Source: Gammaproteobacteria bacterium
GTDB lineage: Bacteria > Pseudomonadota > Gammaproteobacteria > Ga0077536
Direction of reading: 5' to 3'
Assembly: GCA_016191285.1 (NCBI GenBank)
Contig: JACPPA010000052.1
Span: 1-60,831 of the forward strand
DNA: 60,831 bases
Part shown: piece after piece, positions 50,259 through 59,955 of the stretch
Layout: every line of letters starts with the position of its first letter
Position numbering within the stretch: the stretch's first letter is position 1
The notes under the pieces: model-generated
The model's database searches: none
What the model saw: only the letters and a program-made list of their open reading frames with translations
What the model was told of the DNA's origin: nothing
Program-made: the position numbers and the translations under genes

Positions 50259-52784
50259 GTGCTCGACACCGACACCAAACGCCGCATCGACACCGCCCGC
50301 GACATTCTCGTGGGCAAGGTGCCCGACCCCAAATCCCAGGTCGAGCAGATCACCATCGCGCTGATCTACAAGTTCATGGATGACATGGACGCCGAAGCCG
50401 AGGAACTGGGCGGCAAGCGCAAATTCTTCGCCGGCGGCTTCGCCCGCTACGGCTGGGCGAAGCTGATGCGCTCGGGGCTCGGCGGCCACGAGACCCTGAA
50501 TCTCTACGCCGAGGCCATCGCCAAGATGCCGGAGAACCCCGGCATCCCGCCGCTGTTCCGCGACATCTTCAAGAACGCCTACCTGCCGTATCGCGACCCG
50601 GAGACCCAGCGCGCCTTCCTCAAGATCATCGACGAGTTCACCTACGACCACTCCGAGCGCCTGCTCTCCGTGCTGGGCTCGGAGGGTGATGCCGGACAGT
50701 TCCGCACCCCGCGCCACATCATCGACTTCATCGTCGCGAGCGTAGACCCGAAGAAGACCGAGACCGTGCTCGACCCCGCCTGCGGCACGGCCGGGTTCCT
50801 GATCTCCTCCTACAAGCACATCCTCAAGGCCAACACCGACGCCAAGGGCCACAGCAAGCTGACGCCCGACGACAAGGGCCGGCTCGCGCAGAACTTCAAG
50901 GGCTACGACATCTCGCCCGACATGGTGCGCCTGTCGCTGGTGAACCTCTACCTGCACGGCTTCACCGACCCGCACATCGCCGAGTACGACACGCTCACCT
51001 CGCAGGACAAGTGGAACGAATACGCCGACGTCATCCTTGCGAACCCGCCCTTCATGTCGCCGAAGGGCGGCATCAAACCGCACAACCGCTTTTCGGTGCA
51101 GTCCAAGCGCAGCGAAGTGCTGTTCGTGGACTACATGGCCGAACATCTCACACCCCAGGGTCGAGCCGGCATCATCGTGCCAGAAGGCATCATCTTCCAG
51201 AGCCAGACCGCCTACACTCAACTGCGCAAGATGCTGGTGGAGGAGTATCTCGTCGCGGTCGTCTCACTGCCGGCCGGTGTCTTCAATCCCTATTCCGGGG
51301 TGAAGACCTCCATTCTCATCCTCGACAAGACCCTTGCGCGGCAGGCACAGACCATCGGGTTTTTCAAGATCGAGAATGATGGCTTCGGCCTTGGCGCCCA
51401 GCGCCGCGAGATTGAGAAGAACGACCTGCCACAGACTCGTGGCGAGATTGCCGAGTACCTGCGCCGCTTGCGCGCCCGCGAATCCGTCGAGGACTTCCAG
51501 CCTTCACTCGGCCGGATCGTGGCGAAAGAGAAGATAGCCGTGAATGGTGACTACAACCTGAGCGCCGAGAGGTATCGGGAGGGGGCCGCGAGTAATCATG
51601 GTTTCCCGATTGTGTCCCTCGGTGAAAGTGGTCTGTTTCGCGTCGAAAGCGGAGGTACGCCGAAATCCGAAGTCGAGGAGTATTGGGGCGGCGGTATTCC
51701 TTGGGCGACTCTGGTCGACCTTCCCGCATCGAACTTCATCTCTCAAATCACTTCGACCAAGCGGACCATTTCGGAGAAGGGTCTGCGCGAGTCGTCCGCG
51801 AAGATGGTCCCGGCAAACTCGGTGATCGTATCGACGCGGGCGACCATCGGACGCATCGCAATCAACCGGATTCCAATAGCAACGAATCAGGGTTTCAAGA
51901 ATGTCGTGATGGAAGATCCGGAGCGGGCGGTGCCGGAGTACGTCGCGTTGGCGCTCACTAGGCTCGTGCCAACGATGCAAGCATGGGCGACGGGCGGGAC
52001 GTTTGCCGAAATCTCAAAGTCGAAGTTCTGCGAACTGCAAATTCCCCTGCCGTCGCTGGAGGTGCAGAAGGAGATCGTGGCGGAGATCGAGAGCTACCAG
52101 AAAGTCATCGACGGCGCCCGCGCCGTCCTCGATAACTACCGCCCCCACATCCCCATCCACCCCGAATGGCCGATGGTGGAGCTGGCGGAGGTCATCGAGG
52201 GCAAGCCGAAGAACGGATACTCGGGCAAGCCGGTGGATCGCGTCACTGACACAAAGGTACTTACGCTAACTGCGACCACCTCTGGAAAACTCGATTTGAC
52301 GGAGTTTAAGTACCTGGATGAAGAAATTCCGCTGGACGCTGCATGCCGTTGCCGGAAAGGAGACATTTATCTCCAACGCGGAAACACGGCGGAGTTGGTC
52401 GGTACCGCAGCCCTATTCGACGTAGATGAGTCGAACTTTATCTACCCCGACCTCATGATCCGCGTGCGTGCCGACGAGTCGAAGGTCACGAGTCACTATC
52501 TACTCATTGCGCTGCAAAGCCAGCCAGTGCGGGATTTCCTGATGAGGAATGCCGTAGGGGCTGCCGGCAGCATGCCCAAGATCAATCAAGCCATCGTCGA
52601 GCGAGTTCCAATCCAGCTCCCACCCCTCGCCGTTCAGCATGCCATGGTCGCCGAGATCGACGCCGAGCAGGCGCTCGTCACCGCCAACCGCGAACTGATC
52701 ACCCGCTTCGAAACGAAGATTCAGGGAACTCTCGCCCGCGTGTGGGGCGAGGATGAACTGCCGCCGGCGGAGGCCGCCGCATGA
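50259..52784 (+). CDS. fused type I methyltransferase-specificity protein (HsdM-HsdS)
   Basis: 841 aa from GTG, 3 bp after the KilA-N stop. Residues ~1-420 are HsdM: N-terminal helical domain, SAM motif DPACGTAGF from D172 and the catalytic NPPF at N262. Residues ~445-841 are HsdS: two target-recognition domains (starting around HGFPIVSLGESGLFRVESGG and WPMVELAEVIEGKPKNGYSG). Helical spacers follow each (SLEVQKEIVAEIESYQK and LAVQHAMVAEIDAEQ). No separate hsdS exists. It should modify DNA N6-adenine in a bipartite site. Its stop overlaps the next start (ATGA). Confidence 0.87.
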   Translation: MLDTDTKRRIDTARDILVGKVPDPKSQVEQITIALIYKFMDDMDAEAEELGGKRKFFAGGFARYGWAKLMRSGLGGHETLNLYAEAIAKMPENPGIPPLFRDIFKNAYLPYRDPETQRAFLKIIDEFTYDHSERLLSVLGSEGDAGQFRTPRHIIDFIVASVDPKKTETVLDPACGTAGFLISSYKHILKANTDAKGHSKLTPDDKGRLAQNFKGYDISPDMVRLSLVNLYLHGFTDPHIAEYDTLTSQDKWNEYADVILANPPFMSPKGGIKPHNRFSVQSKRSEVLFVDYMAEHLTPQGRAGIIVPEGIIFQSQTAYTQLRKMLVEEYLVAVVSLPAGVFNPYSGVKTSILILDKTLARQAQTIGFFKIENDGFGLGAQRREIEKNDLPQTRGEIAEYLRRLRARESVEDFQPSLGRIVAKEKIAVNGDYNLSAERYREGAASNHGFPIVSLGESGLFRVESGGTPKSEVEEYWGGGIPWATLVDLPASNFISQITSTKRTISEKGLRESSAKMVPANSVIVSTRATIGRIAINRIPIATNQGFKNVVMEDPERAVPEYVALALTRLVPTMQAWATGGTFAEISKSKFCELQIPLPSLEVQKEIVAEIESYQKVIDGARAVLDNYRPHIPIHPEWPMVELAEVIEGKPKNGYSGKPVDRVTDTKVLTLTATTSGKLDLTEFKYLDEEIPLDAACRCRKGDIYLQRGNTAELVGTAALFDVDESNFIYPDLMIRVRADESKVTSHYLLIALQSQPVRDFLMRNAVGAAGSMPKINQAIVERVPIQLPPLAVQHAMVAEIDAEQALVTANRELITRFETKIQGTLARVWGEDELPPAEAAA

Positions 52785-53683
52785 ACTTGCAGGACGCCTT
52801 CTACGAGCAGAAGTTCGAAAATGAATTTCTGCGGGCGAAAGGAGACGCCTTTCAGACGCTCTTCGAGCGGCTGATGGGGCTGGCGTACAAAGCCGATTTC
52901 ATGGCCTGTCGCCCGTGGGGAAATCAGGGTGATCGCAAGAATGACGGCTTTCTAAAGTCCAAGCGGCGCCTGTTCCAGGTCTATGCGCCCAACGAGATGG
53001 ACGCAGCCAAGGCGAAGGCCAAGATCAAGGAGGACTTTGCGGGCGCCAAAGAGCACTGGAGTATTCACTTCGACAAGTGGGTGTTCGTCCACAACGCGAC
53101 GGATGGCCTGCCGCCGCATGTTCAACAACTCCTGCTTGACTTTGAATCGGCCAACTCTGGCGTTTGCATCGAGCCGTGGTCCCTAGAGGAACTCCGGCTG
53201 ATCTTTCGAAAGCTCTCTCTTGACGACAAAACATCGTGGTTTGGCCTCGCACCGTCGGATGCGGCCAGGATGAGTCTGGGCTTCGCTGATTTGAAAGTTG
53301 TTATCGAGCGCATTGCCGCGCTTTCTGCGCCACCGATGGCAGAGGTGAAGGAAGTGCCGACCGGGAAGATCGAGGCGAACGCCCTATCCGAGGCCGTCGC
53401 GCGGCTGCTCAAGGAAGGAATGATCAAGTCGCCTCTAGTCGCGGACTTTCTGTCGCAATGGCATGACGAGACCTTGGGCGAACGGTTAGCCGAGGCCTTC
53501 AAGGCCGAATATCTGCGGCTGCGCGGCGACTTTGGCCCGAACCAGCTATTTGCTGAGCTTCAGTCATGGGCCGGTGGCAATCAACGTGGGACACCGGAAC
53601 ACGAGTTGGCAGTTCTCACAGTTATCGCCTACTACTTCGAGCGCTGCGACATTTTCGAAGAACCTCGAGGTGTCTCACGATGA
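52781..53683 (+). CDS. ABC-3C system nuclease-like component
   Basis: A 300-aa protein directly coupled to the hsdMS gene and to a middle component 6-like gene. The N-terminal ~110 residues resemble a restriction-endonuclease-like fold: E29, then GDRKNDGF (D51, D55) and the strand LFQVYAP (Q66-V-Y68), similar to Mrr-type QxK/Y active sites. The C-terminal half is helical. In ABC three-component systems this position is taken by the effector. Fold assignment is inferred from motif spacing. Confidence 0.65.
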   Translation: MNLQDAFYEQKFENEFLRAKGDAFQTLFERLMGLAYKADFMACRPWGNQGDRKNDGFLKSKRRLFQVYAPNEMDAAKAKAKIKEDFAGAKEHWSIHFDKWVFVHNATDGLPPHVQQLLLDFESANSGVCIEPWSLEELRLIFRKLSLDDKTSWFGLAPSDAARMSLGFADLKVVIERIAALSAPPMAEVKEVPTGKIEANALSEAVARLLKEGMIKSPLVADFLSQWHDETLGERLAEAFKAEYLRLRGDFGPNQLFAELQSWAGGNQRGTPEHELAVLTVIAYYFERCDIFEEPRGVSR

Positions 53684-53925
53684 TCCTCCCCTCCAAGCAC
53701 CTGCCCCACGACCGCGCCCTGCTGACCGTGGGAGCATCCATTCTGCGGCACTTGTCTCACCCCGTCACGGTGTCGGCCTTGTGGGAGGAGATTCCGCGCG
53801 CGCCCTCTGTCCATAAGACGCAATCACCGCTGCGCTACGACGGGTTCGTGCTTGCGCTCGACTTGTTGTTTCTCATAGGTGCTATCGAATTGCGTGACGG
53901 CCTCCTCGTTCGGAGTGCATCGTGA
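53680..53925 (+). CDS. ABC-three component system middle component 6-like protein
   Basis: 81 aa: MILPSKHLPHDRALLTVGAS, a winged-helix-like core (LWEEIPRAP) and LDLLFLIGAIELRDGLLVR. This pattern fits the middle component 6 family that links effector and ATPase in ABC-3C systems. Start ATG overlaps the upstream stop and its stop overlaps the ATPase GTG, so the three are translationally coupled. A longer open frame extends upstream to 53566 but runs inside the nuclease-like gene. Confidence 0.75.
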   Translation: MILPSKHLPHDRALLTVGASILRHLSHPVTVSALWEEIPRAPSVHKTQSPLRYDGFVLALDLLFLIGAIELRDGLLVRSAS

Positions 53926-55643
53926 TTCACCGCATCTACAGCAGCCTGGCGTCATTCAAATCGCTCGACTTGAAGCCCGGACTGAATGTTCTGATTGCCA
54001 AGAAGGAAGCGGGAGCCACCGACAAGCAGACACGCAACCGGGCGGGCAAGACCAGCCTGATTGAAATCGTGCATTTCCTGACAGGCTCGGATGTCGGTAG
54101 GGATTCGCTGTTCCGTTCAGAAGCGCTCGCCGCCGCATCGTTTGGCATGGCCTTCGACCTCAGCGGCGAGCAGCTTCGAGTCGAACGATCGGGGCACCAG
54201 AAAGCCAAGATTCACGTAGAAGGCGCCAGCTTCCTGAATGGGAAGACCAGTCTCTCGAATTCGGAGTGGGTGGAACTCCTTGGCGAGAAAATGTTCGGGT
54301 TGCGCCAAGTCCCGGATGCTGATGGACGGGTGCCGACATTCCGTTCGCTGTTTGCCTATTTCGTGCGCCGGCAACTCAGCGGAGCATTCACGACGCCTGA
54401 GAAGCAGGCAACGATGCAGCAGGCCGGGGACTATCAGGTCGCCTTGCTGTTTATGCTCGGTTTGGATTGGAAGATTGCCAGCGACTGGCAGAAAGTCCGA
54501 GATCGCGAGAAAACCCTGGCTGAGCTGAAAAAGGCGGCAGCTGTCGGCGCGTTCGGCAGCATCGTGGGAAAGGCGTCGGATCTTCGCACTCAATTGACGG
54601 TGGCGGAGGCCCGACTGACAGATATCAAGACCCAAGTTGCTGCGTTTCGTGTGCTGCCACAGTATGCGGAACTGGAAGCGGAGGCCAATCAGCTTACGCG
54701 CGCGATCAATGACCTTTCGAACGCCAACGTGATTGATGCGGCCACGATCGGCGATCTGGACCGCGCACTAAAAGCGGAAGCGCCCCCGTCACCGGCAGAT
54801 CTTCAGAATGTCTATGCGGAGGCCGGGATCGCACTTCCGGACTTAGCCATCAAGCGCTACGAGGATGTGCGGCGCTTCCACGAATCAGTGATCCGAAATC
54901 GGCGAGACTACCTTGCCGGGGAACTGGACGCGGCAAAGCAGCGCGTGACAGCGCGAGATCAGGAGAAGCTCCGTCTCGACGGGAGGCGCGCTACAGTGAT
55001 GGCAGTGTTGCAGAGTCACGGTGCGCTGGAGCAGTTTTCCCAGCTACAAGGGGAAGCCGGGCGCATCGAAGCGATGGTTGAGTCCTTGCGACAACGCTTC
55101 GAAGCTGCCGAACAGCTTGAGGGCACCAAGAACGAGCTGGAGATCGAGAGAAATCACCTGACATTGCGTCTCCGGCGTGATTTCTCCGAACAGAGAGCGC
55201 GATTGTCGGAGGCGATTCTTGCATTTGAGGAAACGTCTCGGAGTCTCTATGAGTCCGCCGGCAGTATGACCGTGGAGGAGACATCCAACGGGCCCACATT
55301 CCAGTTCCCGATGCAGGGTTCGCGAAGCAAGGGAATCAAGAATATGCAGATCTTCTGTTTCGACATGATGCTCATGCGCCTATGCGCCAGACGAGGCGTC
55401 GGGCCGGGCTTCCTGATCCACGATAGCCATCTCTTTGACGGTGTCGATGGCCGGCAGCTGATCAGTGCACTGAAGGTCGGAGCCGAAACAGCGAAGGAGC
55501 TGGGCTTTCAGTACCTCGTGACGATGAATGAAGACGACGCTTTCAAGGAGACTGTTTCCGGTTTTGATCTGCGCGACCGCGTGCTCCCAACTGTGTTAAC
55601 TGATGCCGAGGAAAGCGGTGGATTGTTCGGTTTCCGCTTCTGA
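53922..55643 (+). CDS. DUF2326 SMC/Rad50-like ABC ATPase of an ABC-3C system
   Basis: A 573-aa ABC ATPase from GTG. The P-loop is NRAGKTSLIEIVHFLTG with Lys43; the second conserved Gly is Arg, a deviation from the usual NGxGKT. A coiled coil fills ~190-440 (many LxxxExxR runs). The DUF2326 C-terminus has LIHDSHLFDGVDGRQ (Walker B region) and ends LFGFRF. Such ATPases are the sensors of ABC-3C conflict systems. Third gene of the coupled cassette after hsdMS. Confidence 0.85.
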   Translation: MIHRIYSSLASFKSLDLKPGLNVLIAKKEAGATDKQTRNRAGKTSLIEIVHFLTGSDVGRDSLFRSEALAAASFGMAFDLSGEQLRVERSGHQKAKIHVEGASFLNGKTSLSNSEWVELLGEKMFGLRQVPDADGRVPTFRSLFAYFVRRQLSGAFTTPEKQATMQQAGDYQVALLFMLGLDWKIASDWQKVRDREKTLAELKKAAAVGAFGSIVGKASDLRTQLTVAEARLTDIKTQVAAFRVLPQYAELEAEANQLTRAINDLSNANVIDAATIGDLDRALKAEAPPSPADLQNVYAEAGIALPDLAIKRYEDVRRFHESVIRNRRDYLAGELDAAKQRVTARDQEKLRLDGRRATVMAVLQSHGALEQFSQLQGEAGRIEAMVESLRQRFEAAEQLEGTKNELEIERNHLTLRLRRDFSEQRARLSEAILAFEETSRSLYESAGSMTVEETSNGPTFQFPMQGSRSKGIKNMQIFCFDMMLMRLCARRGVGPGFLIHDSHLFDGVDGRQLISALKVGAETAKELGFQYLVTMNEDDAFKETVSGFDLRDRVLPTVLTDAEESGGLFGFRF

Positions 55644-56061
55644 GGAATGCTCATAGACGACACCGCCGAACGGGAAAACTGCACGCCGCTGTCGTTCAAG
55701 AGCCCGAAGGAATAGTTGGCGTTACAGCGAAGCGGCCGGCAAGCGGATCGTGTCCTGTGCTACCGCTGCTTTCCCATGGTTATGGATGCTTATGTTCACA
55801 TCGCAGCCGAGCCGCGTCAGCAGACGCTTTGATCGATGTGCTCGAACTTGGACTCGCGAAACGCACGTCCACCACTGACGAAACGGGTCGGAATCATTCC
55901 GTCAGTGCCGAGAAATCGCGCAAATTCGAAATCGAACGTGGCGAAGGGCAACTGCCGCGAGCTAAGATGGCCCCAAGTGTCGGGCCGCGGATTGGCAACC
56001 GGTTCGCCGATGCCGGCGCGGAAATCAGCCTAACGATGCAGCAATAGATCTCGGGAACGAT
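55644..56061. other. degenerate stretch with a fragment of a DUF4209 gene
   Basis: No intact gene. 55829-55885 reads LIDVLELGLAKRTSTTDET and matches 58809-58865 inside the DUF4209 gene downstream (46 of 57 bases, no gaps). The rest shows no clear reading frame. Probably debris from a duplication or earlier copy. Confidence 0.6.
55829..55885 (+). pseudogene. duplicated scrap of the DUF4209 gene
   Basis: 57 bp colinear with 58809-58865. The encoded 19 residues are LIDVLELGLAKRTSTTDET here and LIDVLERGLAKRAATADKT there. It shares strand and phase with the downstream gene and nothing else of that gene remains here. Confidence 0.65.
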
Positions 56062-56808
56062 GTGGACAAACCAATACCGATCAGATTAGCCGCGCCGCCC
56101 ATCGTCGAAGCCGTCTGGGAGTTGCGCTTTGAAAGTGAGTCAGACTCACCTGTGGATTTGCTCCCCGGCATCTTGTTTGAACGCGTCGGCGAACGCTATA
56201 ACCAAATCCAACGGCTTCCGGCCGCGGATCTTCCGGTTCAGGCCCTTCAGCTGGACCCGAACCTGCGTCACGCTCCGACCGCGCGCCTCGCGTCGGGTAG
56301 CTATTCGATTCAAGTCGGCCGCAATGTACTGGCGCTCAGTTGCTATGCGCCTTATCCAGGATGGAAGGCATTCAAATCGGAAATTCGATCGATAGCCGAG
56401 ATCGTCCGTACTACGAGCGTCGTTGGGCGCGCCGAACGTTTCTCGCTCAAGTACGTGAACATTCTACCAACCGAGAAATTACCGACTATGTCGCCGCTGG
56501 ATATCGAGTTGAGGATCAACGGTCATGATCTGACACAAGCACCCACTCACGTGCGCACCGAATTGCGCGAGCAGGATTGCCTGGTTGTGGTCCAGGTAGG
56601 ATCACCGGCACAGGTCCAGTATCCGGGAGAACGCGCCAGCGTCGACGGCATATTGATCGATATCGACGCGATTTGGAACGCGCAGGGAGACAGCTTCTGG
56701 GAGACCTTCGAAGATCGACTAGAGTCGGTGAGAGACATCGGTCGCAAGCTATTCTTCAGAGTGCTGACGGCAGCTACAATTGAATCGCTGGGTCCGGAAT
56801 ATTCCTAG
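56062..56808 (+). CDS. TIGR04255 family protein
   Basis: A 248-aa protein from GTG. The family opening PPIVEAVWELRFES and the mid-region VVGRAERFSLKYVNILP identify TIGR04255, a sporadically distributed family of unknown function. No membrane or catalytic motif is evident. It is followed 9 bp later by an antitoxin-like gene and then a PIN-domain gene on the same strand, which makes a three-gene unit. Confidence 0.8.
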   Translation: MDKPIPIRLAAPPIVEAVWELRFESESDSPVDLLPGILFERVGERYNQIQRLPAADLPVQALQLDPNLRHAPTARLASGSYSIQVGRNVLALSCYAPYPGWKAFKSEIRSIAEIVRTTSVVGRAERFSLKYVNILPTEKLPTMSPLDIELRINGHDLTQAPTHVRTELREQDCLVVVQVGSPAQVQYPGERASVDGILIDIDAIWNAQGDSFWETFEDRLESVRDIGRKLFFRVLTAATIESLGPEYS

Positions 56809-56817
56809 GTACATCCA

Positions 56818-57168
56818 ATGACAGAAAGCGCGATAGCTCGGTCGTCCTGCTACGCTGCGCCCACGCTGAGCGCCGCGTTAGTAGTATCCATGGGCTTCGC
56901 CGCAAATGCCGAAGTATTAGCCGATCCGCCGTCGAAAGCACTGGATCCGTGCCTTGGTTGGGCCATTCTGATGGTCGACCGCACCCACTCGCAAGGAACG
57001 ACCGTTACCTCGCCGATTTCGCCCTTCGAAAGCGGGCCGGTGTTCCGCACAGAGCTGGCAAAGCGTCTATGGGAGCTGCGCGTGCAGGTGCTTTGTGAAG
57101 GGGCGCCCATGCTGAATGCGTCGCAAATTTCGGACGAAATCGCGCGCCGGCGCGGTGAGATGGTATGA
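56818..57168 (+). CDS. antitoxin-like protein linked to the PIN gene
   Basis: 116 aa. The N-terminal ~80 residues are low in charge and unstructured-looking. The last ~40 (FRTELAKRLWELRVQVLCEG followed by ISDEIARRRGE) match the toxin-wrapping C-terminus of antitoxins paired with PIN toxins. It starts 9 bp after the TIGR04255 stop and ends 9 bp before the PIN gene. Lacks a recognisable DNA-binding domain. Confidence 0.6.
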   Translation: MTESAIARSSCYAAPTLSAALVVSMGFAANAEVLADPPSKALDPCLGWAILMVDRTHSQGTTVTSPISPFESGPVFRTELAKRLWELRVQVLCEGAPMLNASQISDEIARRRGEMV

Positions 57169-57177
57169 GTCGACAGG

Positions 57178-57597
57178 ATGTTGGGTAAACGGACCTACCT
57201 CGACGCCTCCGTGCTGATTGCCGCTTGTCAGGGGCGGGCCGATGTTGCCCCTCATGCATTCGCAATCTTGGACGACCCAGACCGTGAATTCGTGAGTAGC
57301 GGCTACCTGGAGTTAGAGATCCTGCCCAAGCCGATTTATCGAAACAGAAGCGCCGAAGTCGAGTTCATGCGGACGTACTTGGCTGGCGTCGTACAGCGGG
57401 TTGGCGCATCGGATGCAGTCGTGACTAAAGCGCTGGAAGTAGCAACAGCGCACGATCTGGCATCTATGGACGCGTTGCACATAGCCTGTTGCTACGCGGC
57501 GAACGTCGCAGAATTCGTGACGGTCGAGAAGCGCACCAAACCATTTTTCCGAATCAGCGACTTCGCGATCACGTCTATCACGTCCTCATCGACTTGA
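57178..57597 (+). CDS. PIN-domain ribonuclease (VapC-like toxin)
   Basis: A 139-aa PIN protein. Acidic residues are at the expected places: Asp in TYLDASVLIAA, Glu in SSGYLELEILPK, Asp in ASMDALHIACC; a further acidic residue near TVEKRT may complete the metal site. It is predicted to cut RNA unless bound by the product of the preceding gene. Third gene of the TIGR04255 unit. Confidence 0.8.
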   Translation: MLGKRTYLDASVLIAACQGRADVAPHAFAILDDPDREFVSSGYLELEILPKPIYRNRSAEVEFMRTYLAGVVQRVGASDAVVTKALEVATAHDLASMDALHIACCYAANVAEFVTVEKRTKPFFRISDFAITSITSSST

Positions 57598-58079
57598 GAC
57601 GGCGTTGTATTTGCTGAAATGAGCAGCAAACCGGAGCCGAGCTCATTCACAATATCGACGACAGGAGATTTTCCAGGTCGAGAAGGAGACCGCGGAGAAA
57701 CGAGATTAGCTCGTCGACTCGACCAACCGTGGTGCCGACACTGCACTGATTGCCGGTCTGCAGTGCATCGCTTCGTGGGTGACGAGCGTGCACCGCAGGA
57801 ATTTGACTCGGAAGCGGTCAGCTTCCGAGTGCTGTGCCGACGTCCGGGAGCTCATCATCGACTTCATCGATGCCGGCCATCCCGCTCTGCTGCGAATGTG
57901 GGACCGGAGCCAGCGTGGATACCGGACCATGAGGTATCGGACTTCGGCGATCACGGTGAGCGACGATCTGGACTTCGACTGGTGCAACAATCAAATGCAA
58001 CGCAACGTTCGCCGCCGTGTTAGCGCGGACCTTTGGTTGAAGTTCGCCGTTTCGAATTCCACAATCTGAATTCGCACAC
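57598..58079. other. degenerate stretch before the DUF4209 gene
   Basis: No intact gene recognised. One plus-strand frame (LVDSTNRGADTALIAGLQCI ... RELIIDFIDAGHPALLRMW, about 57710-58069) looks protein-like. It is preceded in frame by a TAG at about 57707 and cannot be assigned to a family. It may be a decayed gene. Confidence 0.4.
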
Positions 58080-59955
58080 ATGCCTCTCGTGATCCCGGCA
58101 GCACTCTTGCCAATTCTCGCCCAAGCCGACGCCAGCACAGCGCCGATTGAAAAAATGCGCCTCGCGGGCACGCTAGTCTCGGCACTCAGCGAGACCCCTG
58201 AACTATCACCGGAAGAAAAGAAGGGGGCTTTCGCGGAGATAGAGGGTCTTCGATTCCAGCGGCCTCACGGTAGCGAGCGTCGAACGTGGGGCATCTATTG
58301 GAGCGAGCTTGCGAGCGGAACCACTCAGGACGGGCGAACATTCTACTCGCCCGACATCACATTCGTCGATGAGGATGTTCTGGCGCACTGGATCAGCCGT
58401 TCCGAAAACGCACGGCACCCCACGCTACGCGCGAGATTCTCGGACCTCGCCTGGGAGATCGGAAGATTTCTGAGTAGGAAGCCAAAGGCTGGTGAAACCT
58501 CGACGCGACCACCGATATCAATAAGTATTGGCCATGAATTGGCACGGCGCGCGATTGACGGATACCTGGAAACACTGAGTCGGGCGCTGTTCGAGGACGA
58601 ATACCACGCATGGCAGTTTCTTGACCGAGCAATCGAGCTGGCGAGTTCCATCAACGACCAGGAACGATGTACCAAAGCCAAATCCGCGCTTTTCGCGTAC
58701 CAGCAAACCATCGAGTCTTCCAATCCCACCTACATGCTATGGCGCTTCGACGAAATTGCATGGAACCGCTCGGCCACTCTATCCCTCGGCGACGGCGAGA
58801 AGCAGATGTTGATCGACGTGCTCGAACGTGGGCTCGCGAAACGTGCTGCCACTGCCGACAAAACGCATTTCGACCCGCATGCGGCGATGGACATTGCTGA
58901 TCGACTGCACCGGCGCCGTATACAGCGCGGCGAACAGGATGAGGCTAGGCGTGCCATTAAGACCGCTGGCGCAGCCTTCGAGGAGGTAGCGAAAGGCGCA
59001 CAAGCCCTTTTGGCGTCAGCATGGCTTGAAGACTTGATTCCGCGCTATCGAAATGAGGGCATGAGCGAGGACGTAGCGCGCGTCGAAGCCGCAATCCGGA
59101 ACCGGGCCGGTGAAGCCTCGGGAGAAATGAAGCGAATTGAAGTGCCCGTCTCCATACCCAAGGCCGAGTTGGACAGTTGGGCGGATCAAGTCGCCGGCAC
59201 AACGAGCGAAGAGGCATTCCGATGAATCGCAGCAGCTGGCCTGATACGTGAGGAGTCAGCAAAGGAGAGCATCCAAGGCATGCTCGCGAATGCTCCCCTT
59301 ATGGCCCATATGCCATCGTCGCTAATGGGCCGACGGCTTTACCACCGCGAAGGTCGGCTCCATCTACGACGATCTTGACGGCCGGACAATACAGCATGCC
59401 GCCGATCTTTTCGGATGGTATGCACCTTGGCTGTATGTCGCGCTGAACCGGGCGAAGGAAAAGCACGGCCTCGAAGTCGACGCCCTAATTGCATGGCTAG
59501 CACAGTGCCCATACTTCGTAGCATCGCGGGAGCCCCTGCTTCGAGCCGGATTGGAGGCTTGGAGTCGGGAACAGCCAGTCGAAGCCATACACATCCTTGT
59601 CCCGCAGATTGAGGCTGCGCTGAGAGACATCCTCGGTGGCCTAGGGGCTGCTACTCACTATCCCGATCCTAAGACCGGCGGATTCAGGGTTGTTGGTATG
59701 GGGGAGATCCTCAATCACGATGCGTTCAAAGCTCGCGCGCCGAACGACATACGTTTCCATTTCAGAGTTCTGTTTTCCGACCCTCGAGGAATTAATCTTC
59801 GCAATCACGTCGCGCACGGCCTGGCGCATCCCGCCCTCTTCAACATGGGGCTCGCCAATTGGGTGATCCATTCGCTATTGCTCATAGGCGTGCTCAGGCC
59901 CACTGCACCGCGCGACGCGCGCGAGAATGCGCCACACGATCAGCCGCCACCATAG
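58080..59955 (+). pseudogene. DUF4209 (RNxxxHG, HEPN-like) gene with a stop and a frameshift
   Basis: The first part (58080-59225) is a long helical N-terminus. An in-frame TGA at 59223 interrupts it, after which the same frame continues IAAAGLIREESAKESIQGML to 59327. There one extra G (GGG instead of GG) shifts the frame to ADGFTTAKVGSIYDDLDG. The rest includes ALRDILGGLGAATHYPDPKT and LRNHVAHGLA at about 59797-59826. That RNxxxHG is the DUF4209 hallmark and fits a HEPN RX4H nuclease motif. Restored length about 624 aa. Confidence 0.75.

Follow-up and report, generated by a model that had tools for sequence, protein, structure and literature searches.

Background

Toxin–antitoxin–chaperone (TAC) systems with SecB-like chaperones (HigBAC, MqsRA-C, HicAB-C, CmdTAC) are three-gene cassettes in which one constant third protein is attached to several toxin–antitoxin families. 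The chaperone protects the antitoxin through a portable C-terminal extension, which lies beside the helper gene and can be grafted to other antitoxins (HigBA, HicAB and MqsRA families; PMC5105189, PMC6377645). Phage proteins displace the chaperone, namely the T4 capsid for CmdTAC (PMC11618068) and a lambda tail protein for HigBAC (PMC11980606), and in CmdTAC the chaperone is both helper and sensor (PMC11618068). Other toxins, such as PIN (VapBC and others), YhaV (PrlF-YhaV) and MazF (MazE-MazF), occur in two-gene pairs with their antitoxins.

Here, we analysed a 60,831-nucleotide stretch of DNA (the window) from a Gammaproteobacteria bacterium (contig JACPPA010000052.1), for which the original prediction described a TIGR04255 gene, an antitoxin-like gene and a PIN nuclease gene as a possible undescribed tripartite toxin system. 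The analysis below suggests that these three genes are one example of an apparently undescribed family of toxin–antitoxin cassettes of bacteria and phages, in which the first gene stays the same while the toxin-like third gene is swapped. The cassette shares with TAC systems a three-gene arrangement with one constant component and different toxin–antitoxin families, but its helper is a TIGR04255 protein with no detectable SecB similarity, the order is helper–antitoxin–toxin, and the third genes include PIN, MazF-like, HEPN and YhaV toxins. The C-terminus of the antitoxin-like protein is a tail shared with two-gene antitoxins rather than a chaperone-addiction extension, and the extra part is N-terminal.

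Three adjacent genes at the locus

To verify the gene arrangement, open reading frames were called and searched against Pfam, NCBIfam, PADLOC and PHROGs. Three ORFs lie on the + strand at 56062-56808 (T, GTG start, 248 aa), 56818-57168 (M, 116 aa) and 57178-57597 (X, 139 aa) with 9 bp between each, so the observation was confirmed. T matched NCBIfam TIGR04255 with 136.8 bits against a cut-off of 30 (E 1.1e-39) over positions 1-252 of 252 of the profile, and it also matched PHROG 5464, function unknown (2.9e-42), but had no Pfam match at all. X, a predicted RNase toxin, matched the PIN family PF01850 with 35.8 bits against 23.6 (E 1.4e-8), while no NCBIfam VapC model was listed for it at E up to 1. 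M matched nothing in the four databases, and no N-terminal DNA-binding or dimerisation domain was found by Pfam, although Pfam can miss short domains. No sigma-70-like promoter was found in 55600-58200.

The AlphaFold model of T (17 sequences, pLDDT 84.5, pTM 0.83) showed two similar runs of strands and helices, which we read as a duplicated, TBP-like beta-saddle/alpha fold; no function follows from it. Structural matches in the PDB were weak: AdoMet decarboxylase (6e-4) and TATA-binding proteins (TM 0.24-0.38), both with TM under 0.4, and guanido kinases with Z 8.3 at 4.3-4.7 A, near the range that the program calls common arrangements. A search of viral models listed mainly unnamed or uncharacterised proteins. 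SecB was tested as a relative of T, but profile–profile comparison gave a probability of only 0.1, and SecB was not among the listed fold matches either, which proves nothing; a relation visible only in the fold is not excluded. T is acidic, with a pI of 5.25 in the window and a median pI of 5.55 in 78 proteins, of which 2 were above 8.

TIGR04255 genes are followed by a variable third gene

We next surveyed TIGR04255 genes. In the class sample, T was present in 34 of 369 genomes (44 match rows, which we count as 42 genes, three of them in the window's own genome) and in 0 of 14 control genomes. Loci (numbered with L) were added from a phylum sample (19 of 398 genomes), phages, a plasmid (the one record found in a plasmid search with T), viral contigs and one genome contig. 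Searches for T relatives in viral contigs with the window T, A8 and A9 found none, and searches of small orders or classes gave nothing beyond the loci already collected. After removal of nine duplicate viral/phage loci (L123, L127, L135, L139, L140, L141, L144, L146 and L147; L127 is a near-duplicate of L126), 82 loci remained.

A third gene could be assigned in 78 of the 82 loci, and in 40 of 42 in the class sample alone, which means that the set is not a chance neighbourhood. The third genes were an unnamed family "QGD" (38 loci), beta (28), delta (5), PIN (3), HEPN (2), MazF (1) and YhaV (1). No third gene was assigned in four loci (L087, L094 with a broken T, L116, L145). In L087, a split TIGR04255 gene is followed by a gene that looks, by eye, like an HNH nuclease rather than a usual third gene, and in L145, from a viral contig, there is no recognisable middle or third gene. 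A script delimited M in 67 of the 78 assigned loci; for several of the other 11 an M is visible, but M statistics rest on the 67, and some loci show no clear M (e.g. L061, L063, L093, L112, L114; L061, L063 and L112 are delta loci). T-M gaps lay within 30 bp in 66 of 67 (53 overlap), partly because M starts were chosen as the start codon nearest the end of T, and M-X gaps lay within 30 bp in 59 of 66.

Pfam gave PemK for L099 (1.1e-18), YhaV for L074 (6.8e-46) and PIN for L081 (4.8e-9) and L024 (3.3e-6); the L077 PIN was placed by hand, from the Pfam match for the same gene as L024. L082 X is 38% identical to a gene annotated as HEPN, while L122 X is called HEPN by eye only. Two members of the 38-locus family were scanned, and neither matched Pfam, NCBIfam or PADLOC; both matched only PHROGs of unknown function. 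A model of one member (L124:5066-5659, pLDDT 79.8) was searched with two programs, and by their titles the 50 rows listed by each were MazF-, Kid- or CcdB-type toxins. The best by Z was S. aureus MazF 4mzp_A (Z 11.3, 2.9 A over 111 of 114 residues, 13% identity). The rest of the family is tied to this member by iterated profiles and by profile comparisons between its subsets (gamma to g72 93.5%, alpha to g72 96.6%, gamma to alpha 69.8%). A MazF profile gave nothing against the alpha and g72 subsets and only a weak collinear match against gamma (probability 28%). If the whole family shares this fold, 45 of 82 loci carry a third gene of a known toxin fold and 33 carry families of unknown fold. 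Among the latter, the beta family (e.g. L106:764-1174 and L128:1938-2429; 17 loci grouped by profile and 11 by eye) is mostly 130-165 aa, with a middle protein of mostly 165-230 aa and no known fold. The delta family (L061:3912-4580, L063, L095, L111, L112) is 214-233 aa with "HVGIVY...HLAWH"-like motifs, and the one member scanned matched only PHROG 11836, function unknown.

To test whether third genes are swapped, a quick maximum-likelihood tree of T was built from 78 rows (75 different sequences), leaving out four short T rows (L087, L093, L094, L110). The third-gene class needed 13 changes by parsimony (15 with "none" as a class), but starred branches alone forced far fewer (2-3 per class), and several long branches make other placements unsure. 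The window's T grouped with PIN cassettes L077 and L081 and MazF cassette L099 (SH-aLRT 91), and L081 and L099 were sisters at SH-aLRT 99.

The middle protein is a mosaic

PIN relatives at 31-40% identity were found in cyanobacterial plasmids and in genome G233 (C91), a genome of the class, as two-gene pairs with no TIGR04255 in the flanks examined. Of five plasmid PIN records, four were examined and three were used as comparison antitoxins; the fourth (L167) has only a short annotated upstream gene. The original prediction gave M an antitoxin-type C-terminus, and this was checked by local alignment: about residues 60-113 of M (56995-57156) aligned with the antitoxins of the four two-gene PIN pairs (L163, L164, L165, L166), each with 0 of 1000 shuffles as good. 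L081 M likewise matched 4 of 4, but L024 M (PIN) matched 0 of 4. The N-terminal halves of these four antitoxins differ: DUF2281 in L164 (E 2.5e-7), a match below cut-off in L166, and no assigned family in L163 and L165. In L074, M residues 86-129 matched PrlF antitoxins of YhaV pairs, including E. coli PrlF (2 of 2 comparisons; 0 and 2 of 1000 shuffles; Pfam PrlF 85-129, E 0.0058, below cut-off), while the N-terminal part of PrlF, a DNA-binding half, is replaced. For HEPN (L082) the two comparisons gave p 0.011 and 0.34, and for L099 neither of two comparisons with MazE-like antitoxins was significant. None of 42 comparisons with antitoxins of another toxin class reached 10 of 1000.

Conversely, where T is most alike but X differs, the N-terminal halves of M matched and the C-terminal halves did not. 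L082 (HEPN) against L083 (MazF-fold), with T identity of 55%, gave 0 of 20000 shuffles (p<5e-5) for the N-terminal half and p 0.09 for the C-terminal half, and L081 (PIN) against L099 (MazF), with T identity of 54%, gave p 0.011 and 0.26. A third pair, L082 against L100 (T identity 46%), gave 3 of 1000 over residues 1-60. Window M and L081 M, both PIN, showed the opposite (N-terminal p 0.38, C-terminal 0 of 20000), and the window's N-terminal half matched L099 only weakly (p 0.034). But this evidence is thin: among 58 pairs with T identity of at least 33% and different X, one reached p<=0.01 for the N-terminal half and one more 0.012, while the rest did not, as expected if the segment diverges fast. 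When 300 pairs of M were aligned, 20 of different class scored 35 or more and 8 of these had 20 or fewer of 1000 shuffles as good, but not all of the 8 lie in the N-terminal half (window-L079 is C-terminal, and L004-L142 and L121-L128 are mid-protein on one side).

A hydrophobic, signal-peptide-like stretch was found in the N-terminal half of window M (residues 17-31, 56866-56910; maximum 15-residue hydropathy 1.61). Such a stretch was present in 18 of 21 small-M MazF-fold cassettes against 1 of 10 ordinary antitoxins, but in only 3 of 7 PIN/HEPN/MazF/YhaV, 4 of 12 large-M MazF-fold and 1 of 23 beta cassettes, and it was absent in L099 and L122 (M was scored over its first 75 residues, ordinary antitoxins over their first 60). 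So a hydrophobic N-terminus as a universal rule for M was rejected.

Interpretation of the cassette

The best reading, which we hold as somewhat more likely than not, is that the three genes form one operon-like cassette of a modular tripartite toxin–antitoxin family. The analysis itself showed that T is the constant unit, that X is swapped between unrelated toxin folds, and that in PIN and YhaV cassettes the C-terminal tail of M belongs with the toxin; the N-terminal half of M appears to travel with T, but from few pairs. What is inferred, without experiment or direct sign of T-M binding, is the RNase activity and toxicity of PIN and the role of T, probably as a dedicated chaperone-like partner. 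In this view, T would bind the N-terminal half of nascent M, with the hydrophobic stretch as a proposed contact, and keep the otherwise unstable antitoxin soluble, and M would then hold PIN inactive. If T were titrated away, for example by a phage protein, M would be lost and PIN freed to cut RNA and stop growth, protecting kin from phage or keeping the cassette in place. The genetic logic would mirror that of TAC systems, with the proposed addiction segment again next to the helper gene.

The interpretation in the original prediction was partly supported. It was right that this looks like a three-component toxin system, that the antitoxin lacks a recognised DNA-binding half and that TIGR04255 is an integral part. 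Two conditions had been named that would count against it. PIN was recognised at only 3 of 82 TIGR04255 loci, so PIN is indeed not the general partner of TIGR04255, but this does not refute the system, because the third gene is swapped while the architecture stays. The second, a standard two-gene pair being sufficient, holds for the PIN relatives in that they form two-gene pairs without TIGR04255 in the flanks examined, but with antitoxins that have a different N-terminal half. Of the two roles proposed for TIGR04255, the regulator is less likely than a chaperone or stabiliser, while a trigger remains possible.

In the first alternative, which is unlikely but the likeliest of the three, T is mainly a sensor or trigger of phage or stress that touches the toxin–antitoxin complex, not a folding helper, and M-PIN is stable without it. 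The occurrence of cassettes in phage genomes, the defence-type neighbours of the window cassette and its apparent mobility agree with this. However, related PIN pairs exist without T but with a different antitoxin N-terminus, which points to a need placed in M, and as CmdTAC shows, sensing may be half of the same mechanism. The second alternative, slightly less likely, is that T is the DNA-binding autorepressor of the operon, replacing the DNA-binding half that M has lost, with M and PIN otherwise an ordinary VapBC-like pair. M does lack the N-terminal part found in two-gene relatives, and TATA-binding proteins are among the best fold matches of T. But these matches are weak, T is acidic, and in cassettes L060 and L064 M shows a helix-turn-helix (Pfam E about 1e-3 to 4e-4, below cut-off) and T is still there; this reading also does not explain why N-terminal halves of M match when T is similar. 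An ordinary VapBC pair next to an unrelated TIGR04255 gene is very unlikely, despite the two-gene PIN relatives and the few PIN loci, because 75 further TIGR04255 loci are followed by another assignable third gene, most with a middle gene, and M N-terminal halves match when T is similar and the toxin is not.

A bolder reading, tentative and slightly less likely than not, is that these cassettes are an undescribed, widespread class of tripartite toxin–antitoxin and probably anti-phage systems, in which a TIGR04255 protein with a predicted duplicated beta-saddle fold has independently taken the role that SecB plays in TAC systems. It would addict many unrelated toxins (PIN, MazF-fold, HEPN, YhaV and others) through an N-terminal addiction segment of the antitoxin, and may double as the phage sensor. 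Tripartite toxin–antitoxin systems with a dedicated helper are already known. In a library without subscription papers and preprints, no paper names TIGR04255, and searches on tripartite, TBP-like and three-gene toxin systems listed nothing that, by title and abstract start, describes such a cassette. If correct, this would give a function to a protein family known only by a number, show that chaperone-like addiction of toxin–antitoxin pairs evolved outside the SecB family, and add a large set of candidate anti-phage cassettes; it also points to a MazF-fold family of third genes.

Genomic context

Upstream of the window cassette are a fused type I methylase-specificity protein (50259-52784), a CTD10 (ABC-3C) protein (52781-53683) and a DUF2326/CTD10 protein (53922-55643), with PADLOC candidates PDC-M68A/B, which together form a probable defence unit (50259-55643). 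Downstream is a DUF7380 protein (58080-59225; PADLOC PDC-S39). The region looks like a defence island. With an alignment model of the T subclade at E 1e-15, T was found in none of the 35 other genomes of the order, and the PIN gene was found in 2 of 144 relatives (the window genome and genome G105) and in 3 of 369 genomes of the class (also G233). The cassette therefore looks recently acquired. A fragment at 55829-55945 resembles part of the downstream DUF7380 gene (81% over 57 nt with 58809-58865; tblastn 48% over 42 aa), and the cassette lies between a possible remnant and the intact gene.

Cassettes were also found in Pseudomonas phages VW-6S (between CI repressor and integrase) and Dobby, and in Sulfurimonas phage SNW-1 (L120, L121, L122). 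T, M and X of VW-6S matched PHROGs of unknown function, and the annotator of SNW-1 noted only the TIGR04255 name. The TIGR04255 starts in VW-6S and Dobby look annotated too short.
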